This document shows, piece by piece, positions 20,679 to 29,777 of a stretch of 33,507 nt of DNA. Position 1 is the stretch's first letter. Each line of letters begins with the position of its first letter. Where the stretch lies: positions 1 through 33,507 of the IMG/VR virus record IMGVR_UViG_3300037294_000299; one strand, written 5' to 3'. The position numbers were made by a program, and so were the translations under genes. The DNA comes from a virus. The notes beneath the pieces were generated by a model that saw nothing but the letters and a program-made list of their open reading frames with translations, was not told the DNA's origin and ran no database searches.

Positions 20679-21160
20679 AATCATTATTCACAATTTCAAA
20701 CGAGGCTATTGAGTTAGCCTCGTTTCTCGAAGAAGGCGAACTATCTCCAGAAATGGAATTAGCCTTGGTAATCAACCAGAATGAGCTACAGGAAAAGTCA
20801 ATCAATTACGGCTACGTAATTCGAACCTTTGACCATGACATAACCGCTATTGATACGGAGATCAAGCGACTACAGGCCCTAAAAACGGCTAAGAACAACG
20901 CGATAGACCGGATGAAGGAAAGCGTATTGCAAGCGATGAACATTTACGGAATCGAAAAGATTGAAAGCCCTACTTTGAAACTATCAATCAGATCCTCAAA
21001 ATCGGTAGATATTGGATTAGAAGAAATGATACCTTCGGAATTCAAGAAAGAAAGGACTACCATATCGATTGACAAAGTAGCGATTAAGAAAGCTATTGAT
21101 TCAGGTGAAAGTGTACCAGGTGCAACTATTAAGGAAAATCAAAACCTACAAATCAAATAA
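20675..21160 (+). CDS. Siphovirus Gp157 family protein
   Basis: The 161-residue protein shows the Gp157 layout. There is a helical N-terminus, a long charged coiled coil (TAIDTEIKRLQALKTAKNNA, then IDRMKESVLQAM), the turn GIEKIESPTLKLSIRSSKSV and a C-terminal part with IPSEFKKERTTISIDKVAIK. Members are found next to phage recombination genes; their precise role is not settled. It overlaps the annealing protein gene by four bases, which ties it to recombination and replication. Confidence 0.85.
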   Translation: MKSLFTISNEAIELASFLEEGELSPEMELALVINQNELQEKSINYGYVIRTFDHDITAIDTEIKRLQALKTAKNNAIDRMKESVLQAMNIYGIEKIESPTLKLSIRSSKSVDIGLEEMIPSEFKKERTTISIDKVAIKKAIDSGESVPGATIKENQNLQIK

Positions 21161-21161
21161 C

Positions 21162-22301
21162 ATGACAGAAATAGATAAGACTTATTGCACAAAACGTATT
21201 TTTGAGTTTTTAGAGGAAATAGCAACTTTTCCGTTCGATGAACAGGTTGAGATTCAAAACTCTATTAAAACTAAAATGCATGAATTAAGCCCTTTTAAAA
21301 ATGAGCCAGTTGATTGCGTTATTTGGGTTAAAAACGACAAGGTTGTAGCAAATGATTACAACCCTAATAAAGTGGCACCTCCTGAAATGGAGTTGCTAGA
21401 GGTATCAATTATGAATGATGGCTATACTCAACCAATTGTGACATGGCCAAAAGGTGATAAAATTGAAGTTATTGATGGTTTTCACAGGTCAAGAGTTGGA
21501 AAGGAATCTTTAATAGTCAAAGAGAGAGTTAAAGGATATTTACCAACTGTTATTATCAGAAAAGAGCAAGAATCTAAAAATGATCGTATTGCCTCAACTA
21601 TTCGGCATAACAGAGCGAGAGGTAAGCATCAAATAAATGCCATGTCTGAAATTGTCATAGAACTAAAGAACCGGAATTGGTCTAATGCTAGGATAGCTAA
21701 ACAGCTTGGAATGGATGATGATGAAATATTAAGATTGTGCCAGATTTCAGGACTTCAAGAACTATTTAAAGATTCTGACTTTTCTAAATCTTGGGAATCC
21801 TCTGATTCAGTAGAGTATGAAATTTTAACCGATGATTTTGATGAAATTCAAGATGTTAGAACCGTTAATACTTCTGATCCTGACCGTATTTTTCATACAT
21901 GGGATAAATGGGAGTGCTACAAAGCAGGGTTTTATAACAAAACAATTCCAGGAATGACAACCGAAGAATGTGAATTGGCTTATTCTAGGTTATTGTCAAG
22001 TGAGGATAAATTTTCTCAAGCCTTAAACGGAGTTATTACTCAGTGGAAAAATTCATGTGAACACTATCTTACCAATACTGCTATGAATCGAATAGCTTGG
22101 TTAGGGCAAGCAGCAATGTGTTTTGCCCTTGGCATTCCTTCTGAGTTTAGATCAGGGTTTAATATTCTCAATACTGAACAGCAGGATAATGCTAATCATT
22201 TAGCTTTAAAATATCTAAATATTTGGATGGGCTCAAATAATAGAAAAGAGATTCAAATGGATGAGGCTTTATCGATCGGCAGACAAGTAAACATTTATTA
22301 A
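21162..22301 (+). CDS. ParB-fold protein, IbrB-like, with extra C-terminal domain
   Basis: I chose the ATG at 21162 (MTEIDKTYCTKRIFEFLEEI), giving 379 residues and a one-base gap to the previous stop. Residues 50-130 form a ParB/sulfiredoxin-type domain with NDYNPNKVAPPEMELLEVSI, DGYTQPIVT and the signature IDGFHRS (104-110). An HTH-like part follows (NWSNARIAKQLGMDDDEI). The C-terminal 130 residues (WDKWECYKAGFYNKTIPGM, later NRIAWLGQAAMC) seem to be a separate helical domain. The gene stands one base before a PAPS-reductase-type gene, the IbrB/IbrA arrangement. Biochemical activity is unknown; a nuclease or nucleotide-binding role is possible. Confidence 0.8.
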   Translation: MTEIDKTYCTKRIFEFLEEIATFPFDEQVEIQNSIKTKMHELSPFKNEPVDCVIWVKNDKVVANDYNPNKVAPPEMELLEVSIMNDGYTQPIVTWPKGDKIEVIDGFHRSRVGKESLIVKERVKGYLPTVIIRKEQESKNDRIASTIRHNRARGKHQINAMSEIVIELKNRNWSNARIAKQLGMDDDEILRLCQISGLQELFKDSDFSKSWESSDSVEYEILTDDFDEIQDVRTVNTSDPDRIFHTWDKWECYKAGFYNKTIPGMTTEECELAYSRLLSSEDKFSQALNGVITQWKNSCEHYLTNTAMNRIAWLGQAAMCFALGIPSEFRSGFNILNTEQQDNANHLALKYLNIWMGSNNRKEIQMDEALSIGRQVNIY

Positions 22302-22302
22302 T

Positions 22303-23541
22303 ATGGCAACTAAAATATACCAAGAATCAAACGTTCTTGAAGCATCAAAAGATAGGATTTCACACGTTTTTGATCACTTCGAAGAAATTTATATTAGCTT
22401 TTCAGGTGGAAAGGATAGTTCGGTAATGACTCACTTAGTTTTGGCTGAGGCAATTAAAAGAAATAGGAAAGTCGGTTTATTGATAATTGATTTAGAGGCT
22501 CAATATAAAGACACTATAAGCCACATTACTGATGTTGTGAGAGAATATAGAGACAATATTAACCTTCATTGGGTTTGTGGTGAATTACTACTAAGAAATG
22601 CAGTTAGTAATTTTGAACCTCGTTGGTGCGCATGGGATTCTGAGAATGAGAACCTTTGGATTAGGAGAAAACCCTACAATGCTTCTGATTTAAGCCAATA
22701 CGATTTCTATAATCCTAAAATGGAGTTTGAGGAATTTATGGTCCTATTTGGCCAATGGTACGGCAAAGGAAAATTGACCGCTGGATTTATAGGTATTAGA
22801 TCAGATGAAAGTTTGCATAGGTATCGAGCAATAACTAGCAGAAAAGACGGATTGATGTTCCATGATAAAAAATGGACTACAAAAGTTTCAAAGGATCTTT
22901 TTAATATTTACCCTATTTACGACTGGAAAACTCAAGATATTTGGGTTTATCATGGTAAATATCCTGAAAAAAGCCATAATAAGATTTATGACAAAATGAA
23001 TCAGGCTGGGGTTAAATTAAGTCAGCAAAGACTTTGTCAGCCTTATGGAGATGACCAAAGAAAAGGATTGTGGCTTTATCACATACTTGAGCCGGACACT
23101 TGGTTTTCTCTTTTAAAGCGTGTCTCAGGTGTTAATTCAGGGGCTTTGTATATTAATGATAATGGCAATATGACTGGTTATCATCACATTGATAAGCCTG
23201 ATGGATATACTTGGGAAACTTTCTGCAACTTTCTTTTAAGCACAATGCCAAAAACTACTAGTGAACATTATAGAGTTCGTTTTAAAAAGTTTATCTCAGG
23301 ATGGAAACAAAGGGGCTACGATAAAATACCAGATGAGGCACCAAGGGAATTAGAGGTTAATTGCTGGGTTCCGTCATGGAAAAGAATGTGCAGGGTTTTG
23401 CTTAGAAATGATTATTGGTGCAAAGGTTTAGGTCAGTCTCAACCAAAATCAGAGGCTTACATTAAATACAAAGAAATAAAAGCTAAGAGAATAATCAATG
23501 AAAAGATAAAATCTAAGCAACTAAATCCTGAAATATTCTAA
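22303..23541 (+). CDS. PAPS-reductase / PP-loop ATPase family protein, IbrA-like
   Basis: The 412-residue protein has the PP-loop SGGKDSS at 34-40 in IYISFSGGKDSSVMTHL. An LLIIDLEAQY strand, a region with FIGIRSDESLHRYRAI and PIYDWKTQDIWVY, and a C-terminal half with NCWVPSWKRMC follow. PAPS-reductase-like enzymes with this long C-terminal region match the IbrA group (DUF3440). They activate a substrate with ATP and, in related Dnd systems, transfer sulfur to DNA. The ParB-type gene directly upstream completes a pair known from E. coli prophages, where it affects gene expression. The reaction here is unproven. Confidence 0.85.
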   Translation: MATKIYQESNVLEASKDRISHVFDHFEEIYISFSGGKDSSVMTHLVLAEAIKRNRKVGLLIIDLEAQYKDTISHITDVVREYRDNINLHWVCGELLLRNAVSNFEPRWCAWDSENENLWIRRKPYNASDLSQYDFYNPKMEFEEFMVLFGQWYGKGKLTAGFIGIRSDESLHRYRAITSRKDGLMFHDKKWTTKVSKDLFNIYPIYDWKTQDIWVYHGKYPEKSHNKIYDKMNQAGVKLSQQRLCQPYGDDQRKGLWLYHILEPDTWFSLLKRVSGVNSGALYINDNGNMTGYHHIDKPDGYTWETFCNFLLSTMPKTTSEHYRVRFKKFISGWKQRGYDKIPDEAPRELEVNCWVPSWKRMCRVLLRNDYWCKGLGQSQPKSEAYIKYKEIKAKRIINEKIKSKQLNPEIF

Positions 23542-26287: not shown

Positions 26288-26869
26288 ATGGAAAACAACT
26301 ATCAACAGCTAAAACTAAGACTTGATAATAATACTATTCAGGATTTTATTAATGATTGGGAAAGTATTATAGGGCAAATTAAGTGTAAAATGTCCTTCAT
26401 TTTTTGGGCAAAAAAACTTACTGATTTAGAAATGCTAACAGCTAGAACTTCATTGATTGTAAGGGGATCATCAGATTTAAACCATAAAATTTTTATAACC
26501 AAGTTCGCTTTAAAATATGGATTTGTGGGCCAAAGTTTCCTAAAAAAAAGGTATGATAATCCATTAATTATGGATGGAAAAGAAATCGGTTATCCAGTTT
26601 ATTATTTATGGTGTAGGAATAATCCTAAGTTTCAACCTCCAAATTCTATTGGTATTTACTATCTTTTTAATAAAGGATTGCTAGTTTATATCGGGTTTAG
26701 TAGGAAGATCAGAACTAGAATTCGATCTCATAAAATTGAAAAAGTAAAAGAGTTTGATGCTATTTTATGGGAAACAAAAAAAGGAATTCACTTTACAAAA
26801 TGGCTACAAATTGAAAGAGAATTGATAAAATACTGGAAACCATCACTAAATAAAAACTACTTAGAATGA
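26288..26869 (+). CDS. GIY-YIG endonuclease domain protein
   Basis: The 193-residue protein has an N-terminal region of about 115 residues without a recognised fold and a C-terminal GIY-YIG module. The module shows GIY (122-124), YIG (134-136), the Arg-rich SRKIRTRIRSHK and the catalytic-type Glu in IERELIKYWKPSLN. Such nucleases cut DNA in recombination, repair or homing. It lies between DnaB and RusA with two-base and four-base spacing, so it seems a regular part of the replication operon rather than a free homing gene. Confidence 0.85.
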   Translation: MENNYQQLKLRLDNNTIQDFINDWESIIGQIKCKMSFIFWAKKLTDLEMLTARTSLIVRGSSDLNHKIFITKFALKYGFVGQSFLKKRYDNPLIMDGKEIGYPVYYLWCRNNPKFQPPNSIGIYYLFNKGLLVYIGFSRKIRTRIRSHKIEKVKEFDAILWETKKGIHFTKWLQIERELIKYWKPSLNKNYLE

Positions 26870-28877: not shown

Positions 28878-29044
28878 TGTGGCTACTTATAAATCTTAAG
28901 GAAAATAGTTTCAAAGGCTATTACAGCTTCCGAAGACTTGCAAATGACATAGGGCTGCCAAAGTCAGTAGAAAAGCCTTCTATTCCTCTAAGAATTGGTG
29001 AAACTTATGAGATTAGACCTATTGAACTTGATGATAGGATTTGA
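28877..29044 (+). CDS. Unknown 55-residue protein
   Basis: An ATG at 28877 overlaps the lipoprotein stop codon (TAATG) and opens MWLLINLKENSFKGYYSFRR, ending at TGA 29042-29044. The segment GYYSFRRLANDIGLPKSVEK may be a small DNA-binding or modified HTH stretch. It ends ten bases before the left end of cassette B, so the insertion respects the gene. No family is recognised. Confidence 0.55.
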   Translation: MWLLINLKENSFKGYYSFRRLANDIGLPKSVEKPSIPLRIGETYEIRPIELDDRI

Positions 29045-29111
29045 TTTTTGGTTTATAACGAATGGGGCTACCAGAAGGACGGGATTTAAACCACAAAATA
29101 AACTTAGAAAG

Positions 29112-29777
29112 ATGAAAGATATTTTAACCACAAATGCTTCTAACGAAGCCGAAAGCCCCGCCTTTTTGGTAGGTGCTGTTAGCGGTAGTTATTCGTTTAA
29201 TTTGTCATTAGATGATTTGCCAAATGAAGAATGGAAAGATATTCCAGATTATGATGGTATGTATCAATGTTCAAATTATGGCAGAATAAAAACATTAAAA
29301 AGAGAATTTGTAAGAGAAATAAAAGGGCACATAGTAACTGGATATACTATTGAAAAAATAAGAAAACCAACTTTGATAAAACCAAAAAACGCCAATATTT
29401 CAGTATTATATTTATCGTTAAAAGTTAATGGGGTAAGAAAAACTGACACTGTAAATCAATGGGTCGGGATAACATTTATAGGTGATAAAAAAAAAGGATA
29501 TCATTTTCAACATAAAAATAAAAATGGTTTAGATAACCGACGTGAAAATATTGAACAGGTCACTTTAAAAATTAGCAAATCAAATGACCATAAAAAAAAC
29601 AAAAGGACATATCATAACTATCCACACTTGCCTAAGCAGAAATTAAAAATAGAAAGAGAGGATGGGGCTTTGTTTACATTCTCAGAAATAGTAAAGGAAT
29701 ATGGCAGAAGTGCTTATTTTAATATTTTAAAAGGAAGTAACGTCAGAGGCTTTAAATGGAACGTAAGTCTTTTATAA
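29112..29777 (+). CDS. HNH homing-type endonuclease with NUMOD4 domain
   Basis: I chose the ATG at 29112 (MKDILTTNASNEAESPAFLV); a frame start at 28995 would overlap the previous gene. Residues 1-26 are the cassette leader with GAVSGS. NUMOD4 follows at 39-60 (EEWKDIPDYDGMYQCSNYGR), then the HNH core GYHFQHKNKNGLDNRRENIE at 129-148. The C-terminus has a DNA-binding repeat (TFSEIVKEYGRSAYF, then VRGFKWN). Such enzymes nick or cut DNA at long sites and spread with their own gene. The first HNH His position reads HFQH, unlike the common VHHIN, so catalytic fitness is not certain. Confidence 0.85.
   Translation: MKDILTTNASNEAESPAFLVGAVSGSYSFNLSLDDLPNEEWKDIPDYDGMYQCSNYGRIKTLKREFVREIKGHIVTGYTIEKIRKPTLIKPKNANISVLYLSLKVNGVRKTDTVNQWVGITFIGDKKKGYHFQHKNKNGLDNRRENIEQVTLKISKSNDHKKNKRTYHNYPHLPKQKLKIEREDGALFTFSEIVKEYGRSAYFNILKGSNVRGFKWNVSLL

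Follow-up and report, generated by a model that had tools for sequence, protein, structure and literature searches.

We found that two adjacent genes in a phage early operon encode a module of the IbrAB kind in a new, three-part form: an IbrB-like ParB-fold protein, an IbrA-like PP-loop enzyme, and an all-helical domain, here called Cdom, that is a genuine, new, and conserved partner of IbrAB in many phages. With a chance that we put just short of even, this cassette is an ATP-dependent module for modifying nucleic acid, in which the ParB half would position the complex, Cdom would provide docking or shape the substrate, and phage DNA would be marked or protected.

The window, which is the whole stretch of DNA that we analyzed, comprises IMG/VR virus record IMGVR_UViG_3300037294_000299 in full (33,507 bases). 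Its terminase is closest to that of Flavobacterium phage 11b (67% identity), and the host is flavobacterium-like. Two open reading frames (ORFs) on the + strand, ORF 1 (21162-22301, 379 amino acids) and ORF 2 (22303-23541, 412 amino acids), are open throughout and separated by one base, position 22302. The ORF list also held a longer ORF 1 starting with TTG at 21096; since ORF 1 homologues are mostly 355-392 amino acids long, we favored the ATG at 21162. The sequences IDGFHRS, SGGKDSS, and NRIAWLGQAAMC are all encoded in this pair. As a sequence-only reading of the window had proposed, the pair lies between recombination and replication genes, with a Gp157 match (PF05565, E 4e-36) and exonuclease-type recombination PHROGs on the 5′ side and a replisome-organizer-like gene, DnaB helicase, a weak GIY-YIG match (26288-26869), RusA, and SSB on the 3′ side. 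Among loci of the fused type, 69 of 80 adjoin replication/recombination gene clusters. The early region of the window also contains a NUMOD4/HNH homing-type endonuclease gene (28995-29777).

The first 215 residues of ORF 1 (21162-21806, + strand) form the IbrB-like half, which has a ParB/sulfiredoxin fold followed by a helix-turn-helix-like part. Although the Pfam ParB_N match was weak (E 7e-4, below cut-off), residues 1-215 matched a ParB-like PHROG at E 1e-70, and a Foldseek search with the AlphaFold model retrieved Noc, KorB, and ParB-CDP/CTP structures and, more weakly, sulfiredoxin. The helix-turn-helix region (residues ~134-215) was modeled with low confidence. These results uphold the initial identification of ORF 1 as an IbrB-like ParB-domain protein. 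A DGFHR motif (residues 105-109; 21474-21488, + strand) occupies the position of ParB box II and the sulfiredoxin nucleotide motif; D105, G106, F107, H108, and R109 do not vary in 48 fused homologues, and from established ParB motifs we take DGFHR to be the box II equivalent. A second motif, KNDRIASTIRHNRARGKH (residues 139-156; 21576-21629, + strand), is box III-like and invariant at nearly every position across the 48 homologues. A search of 30 cassette-bearing phage records that detected its positive controls gave no ParA partner (AAA_31 family), and we therefore rejected a ParABS partition system.

ORF 2 encodes an IbrA-like PP-loop enzyme with a DUF3440 region, in agreement with the identity first read from its sequence. 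Its Pfam matches to DUF3440 (E 3e-34) and PAPS_reduct (E 3e-13) are both past cut-off, and its PHROG match is to PAPS reductase (E 1e-77). A structure model (pLDDT 86, pTM 0.81) has CysH (best, E 7e-7), CysD, and FAD synthase as its nearest solved folds in Foldseek. The SGGKDS PP-loop motif (residues 34-39; 22402-22419, + strand) is intact: S34, G36, K37, D38, and S39 are invariant across 67 diverse IbrA proteins, as are E65, R166, E169, S170, R173, N226, R243, and others, and S[GA]GKDS is present in 180 of 184. The second nucleotide-site motif of the PAPS-reductase group, GxRxxES (residues 164-170; 22792-22812, + strand), is found in all 184. DUF3440 matches in two stretches spanning residues ~236-387 (23008-23463, + strand), of which the best is 236-339, and other cassette layouts encode a C-terminal-like fragment of this region as a small protein of its own.

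Two features expected of sulfur chemistry are missing from IbrA. The catalytic ECGLH motif of PAPS reductases occurs in none of the 184 proteins, and 14 representatives sharing <60% identity have no invariant cysteine column, the best column being cysteine in 11 of 14. Together, these results argue against both the PAPS reductase label and DndC-type phosphorothioation. As a PAPS reductase, IbrA would be an auxiliary metabolic enzyme of sulfate assimilation, as phage papers treat such genes (PMC10434257) and as the PAPS_reduct match and the CysH-like fold would allow. However, the constant partners of IbrA are a ParB protein and Cdom, not sulfur genes, and because ECGLH is absent throughout we rejected this role as extremely unlikely. 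Phage IbrA-type genes are nonetheless classed in PHROG 2302, and reported, as sulfur-metabolism auxiliary genes despite the missing ECGLH; such genes may be something else.

The sequence-only reading had also linked the pair to DndC. IbrA and DndC belong to the same PP-loop superfamily, DndC profiles match IbrA weakly, and DndB, like IbrB, is a ParB-superfamily protein (PMC10853773). The link was not supported: the DndC equivalog model TIGR03183 scored 17.7 bits against a cut-off of 290.4, the PADLOC DndC match reached only E ~1e-6, and the cysteine dyad and Fe-S ligands of DndC have no counterpart in IbrA. Cysteine desulfurase was absent from 30 phage records in which positive controls were detected, although host IscS could serve, and DndE was absent from 30 cassette-bearing records in a search run without a positive control. 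On the model scores, the lack of an invariant cysteine, and the missing desulfurase, we rejected DndC-like phosphorothioation of DNA as highly improbable.

CysD and FAD synthase adenylate their substrates without a catalytic cysteine. Since these enzymes are structural neighbors of IbrA, which likewise has no invariant cysteine, we infer that IbrA is an adenylating enzyme with an intact PP-loop ATP site. The weaker structural matches of the model include TilS, TtuA, and NcsA, and an enzyme of the TilS/TtuA type could act on RNA, in particular tRNA. We consider this very unlikely, as IbrA is nearer to the CysH/CysD/FAD-synthase group than to the tRNA enzymes, and the ParB partner and the DNA-replication setting point to DNA.

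The third component, Cdom, occupies residues 238-379 of ORF 1 (21873-22301, + strand). It had no family match in Pfam or PHROG (residues ~238-379), no significant match in a profile search of the PDB (7rpr, at E 0.08, is at chance level), and no clear Foldseek match among solved structures, so our attempt to identify it by fold or profile failed. Its AlphaFold model is a confident helical bundle, with pLDDT mostly >90 over residues 251-370. The fused C-terminal domain noticed in the original reading is also separable, since Microcystis, Pseudomonas, Pseudoalteromonas, and Mycobacterium phages and many viral contigs encode it as a gene of its own next to IbrA. Standalone Cdom adjoins IbrA in loci L002, L003, L004, L007, and L088-L103. 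In Microcystis phage Mwe-JY13 and Pseudomonas phage Amjad_SA, the Cdom gene separates IbrB from IbrA; in Pseudoalteromonas phage XCL1123 it follows IbrB, and in Mycobacterium phages Gaia and Nebkiss it comes two genes after IbrB.

To survey the linkage of the three parts, we used several scans, which partly cover the same contigs. In viral contigs carrying the ParB fusion, IbrA was the next gene in 80 of 80, separated by -1 to 13 bases in 79 and by 524 bases in one, indicating that the pair is not a chance neighborhood; this set was picked by patterns from the fused protein and carries no information on the frequency of fusion. With the Pseudomonas Cdom alone as query, we obtained 16 viral contigs, all arranged IbrB-Cdom-IbrA. 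Searching from a single distant Cdom sequence found nothing, and a search seeded with an alignment succeeded. Among the 80 loci of this alignment-seeded scan, IbrA was present in all (two are cut by contig ends), and IbrB was missing from only four, each cut by a contig end. The layouts were IbrB-Cdom-IbrA (42 loci), IbrA-cupin-IbrB-Cdom-DUF3440C (17), Cdom-DUF3440C-IbrA-IbrB (8), and Cdom-IbrA-IbrB (6), together with a few permutations or cut loci. A Cdom alignment gave five loci in 84,980 species genomes, both partners being present in all five. On every contig that carries Cdom and is long enough to show its neighbors, IbrB and IbrA lie adjacent.

The dependence runs in one direction. A sequence search of phage records found Cdom in only six, all with IbrA and IbrB, and the IbrB half in 218. 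A profile search with all filters off gave no Cdom match around the IbrAB pairs that we examined from E. coli, Chlorobiaceae, Lactobacillus, Streptococcus, Flavobacterium, and Fusobacterium. Cdom therefore depends on IbrAB, whereas IbrAB can occur without Cdom; the many pairs that lack it, such as those of E. coli, Streptococcus, Lactobacillus, and Chlorobiaceae phages, indicate that the basic function does not require Cdom.

Two further proteins accompany some of these layouts. In one IbrA clade, an ectoine-synthase-like cupin is encoded between IbrA and IbrB or, in Gaia and Nebkiss, as a fusion with IbrB (L004 5607-5999; L007 4608-5000; ~20 viral contigs among L109-L188); its presence suggests an extra chemical step there. 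A small DUF3440-C-terminal-like protein accompanies Cdom in two layouts (L004 6822-7130; L007 6246-6446; many of L109-L188).

The three parts are also inherited together. Distance matrices correlated at 0.85 between the ParB half and IbrA and at 0.73 between Cdom and IbrA. For neighboring replisome-like, exonuclease-like, primase, ERF, and NinG genes, the correlation with IbrA was 0.27-0.58, whereas in the same loci that between the ParB half and IbrA was 0.86-0.92. DnaB, at 0.74 over only 11 loci, is the exception; apart from it, the three parts are co-inherited far more tightly than with the neighboring replication genes. In the IbrA tree, which was built from a Cdom-seeded sample and has a long branch for the Flavobacterium phage row, the IbrB-Cdom fusion was gained once (99% support), with the separate-gene Microcystis phage as sister of the fused clade. 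The cupin was likewise gained once (99% support), and absence of Cdom is scattered.

DUF3440 was found in none of 40 related phage contigs picked by terminase or primase. The cassette is thus a mobile, sporadic, and exchangeable unit among phages. Such a distribution would also suit defence, superinfection exclusion, or counter-defence directed at competing phages, plasmids, or host restriction by a route other than marking the phage's own DNA. A search of 5426 complete E. coli genomes (query L006 1831-3644) found IbrAB-like pairs in 1848, mostly on the chromosome, which fits the same idea. Yet PADLOC offers no family for IbrB, its DndC and BrxP matches to IbrA are weak and at superfamily level, and the cassette has no nuclease or toxin component; we regard a defensive role as improbable. 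The annotations of the E. coli pairs are PAPS reductase and IbrB-like protein.

Comparison with known systems places the window pair closest to IbrAB. Both subunits of E. coli IbrA/IbrB (COG3969/DUF3440 plus ParB-like) are homologous to those of the window, and the genes are adjacent: IbrA of an E. coli phage is 41% identical to the window IbrA over 94% of the length, and IbrB is 51% identical over the ParB part. However, the E. coli gene order is the opposite, and the E. coli pair lacks the Cdom that is fused to IbrB in the window. Mwe-JY13 and Amjad_SA have the components and order of the window, with IbrA proteins 60% and 49% identical to ours, respectively, but encode Cdom as its own gene, whereas in the window clade it is fused, with a single origin. 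XCL1123, Gaia, and Nebkiss contain all three proteins in IbrA-cupin-IbrB-Cdom modules that differ in the cupin, in the separate DUF3440-C-terminal protein, and in an IbrA only ~32-33% identical. CysH, CysD, and FAD synthase share the PP-loop fold and nucleotide-site motifs with IbrA, which differs in lacking the catalytic ECGLH and in having the DUF3440 extension and the ParB and Cdom partners.

The main rival to nucleic-acid modification is a role in gene expression. The ParB-like protein would sit at promoters and act with the PP-loop protein, a sensor of ATP or adenylate, to switch transcription of the phage or the host, making the cassette a co-activator or a regulator of host takeover. 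This role has the only experimental precedent, as E. coli IbrAB is known solely for activating the eib genes of prophages (Sandt 2002, cited in PMC6008420). A ParB fold with a helix-turn-helix-like part resembling Noc and KorB, and the placement of the cassette in an early operon, are as a regulator would have them. However, an intact PP-loop and many polar residues strictly kept across very diverse phages go beyond the needs of a plain regulator, the enzyme-like cupin partner of one clade suggests chemistry, and the effect in E. coli could be indirect, through DNA modification. We therefore judge the co-activator role unlikely. We found no biochemical function of IbrAB described in the literature.

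The best support is for nucleic-acid modification, to which we give about an even chance. It was also proposed in the sequence-only reading, with counter-defence as the alternative, and stands in that general form; the DndC-type route attached to it found no support. Systems for DNA modification repeatedly pair a ParB-superfamily protein with a modifying enzyme, as in DndB and DndC or DpdB and the TGT-like DpdA (PMC10853773, PMC12839542), and a ParBc protein is often encoded near a phage cytosine-modification pathway (PMC12783734). The window cassette parallels the Dnd and Dpd pairs in this respect (PMC10853773, PMC12839542) but belongs to neither system, having no DndC cysteine features and no desulfurase in the 30 phage records. 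By analogy with these pairs, nucleotide and DNA binding would fall to IbrB and ATP-dependent activation of the target to IbrA, with Cdom connecting the two or setting their orientation. The ParB/sulfiredoxin half would place the complex on phage DNA. Needing no catalytic cysteine, the IbrA PP-loop would adenylate either the target or a small-molecule group and so activate it, with Cdom docking IbrA to the ParB half or shaping the substrate. Early production alongside recombination and replication genes would allow phage DNA to be marked or protected while it is replicated.

A more specific version, which we regard as doubtful, is an undescribed phage DNA modification that is independent of cysteine and driven by adenylation, in which Cdom is an essential specificity or docking subunit and the cupin adds a chemical step in one clade. 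If so, the many IbrA-type auxiliary genes labelled "PAPS reductase" in phages would encode DNA-modification enzymes.

We also compared DNA methyltransferases in cassette-bearing and related phages. N6/N4 methyltransferases were rarer with the cassette (1 of 27 versus 9 of 40, p 0.04), but length matching reduced the difference to 1 of 25 versus 6 of 25 (p 0.10). C5 methyltransferases did not differ (7 of 25 versus 5 of 25), and the count for D12 methyltransferases was 0 of 50. As the C5 enzymes showed no difference, functional replacement of methyltransferases by the cassette is not established, and the N6/N4 counts are a weak hint at most.

IbrAB is widespread, occurring in about a third of complete E. 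coli genomes, with the IbrB half matched in the 218 phage records noted above. The presence of Cdom in a large subset of IbrAB, the cupin in one clade, and the missing catalytic cysteine define a three-protein complex for purification and assay.

An SF2 helicase was considered as a general fourth component. SNF2-type helicases adjoin IbrAB pairs without Cdom, or lie one small gene away, in Lactobacillus, Streptococcus, Flavobacterium (FCL-2), and Fusobacterium phages (L189 2545-3714, L190 2515-3750, L191 2803-4014, L193 5862-7058). In 30 Cdom-bearing records (27 fused-type, three with separate Cdom), no SNF2-type helicase passed the cut-off and ResIII was present in six; the helicase is therefore not part of the Cdom variant, and we rejected it as a general component. 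Gene 102 of Mycobacterium phage Nebkiss (L007 2350-3246) is labelled "DNA helicase", but Pfam finds in it a PD-(D/E)XK nuclease domain and no helicase. A few kilobases from IbrAB, Fusobacterium phage phiFN37 carries a second ParB-like gene beside a queuine tRNA-ribosyltransferase and a queuosine transporter (L193 8454-10456), an arrangement resembling DpdA-type 7-deazaguanine systems.
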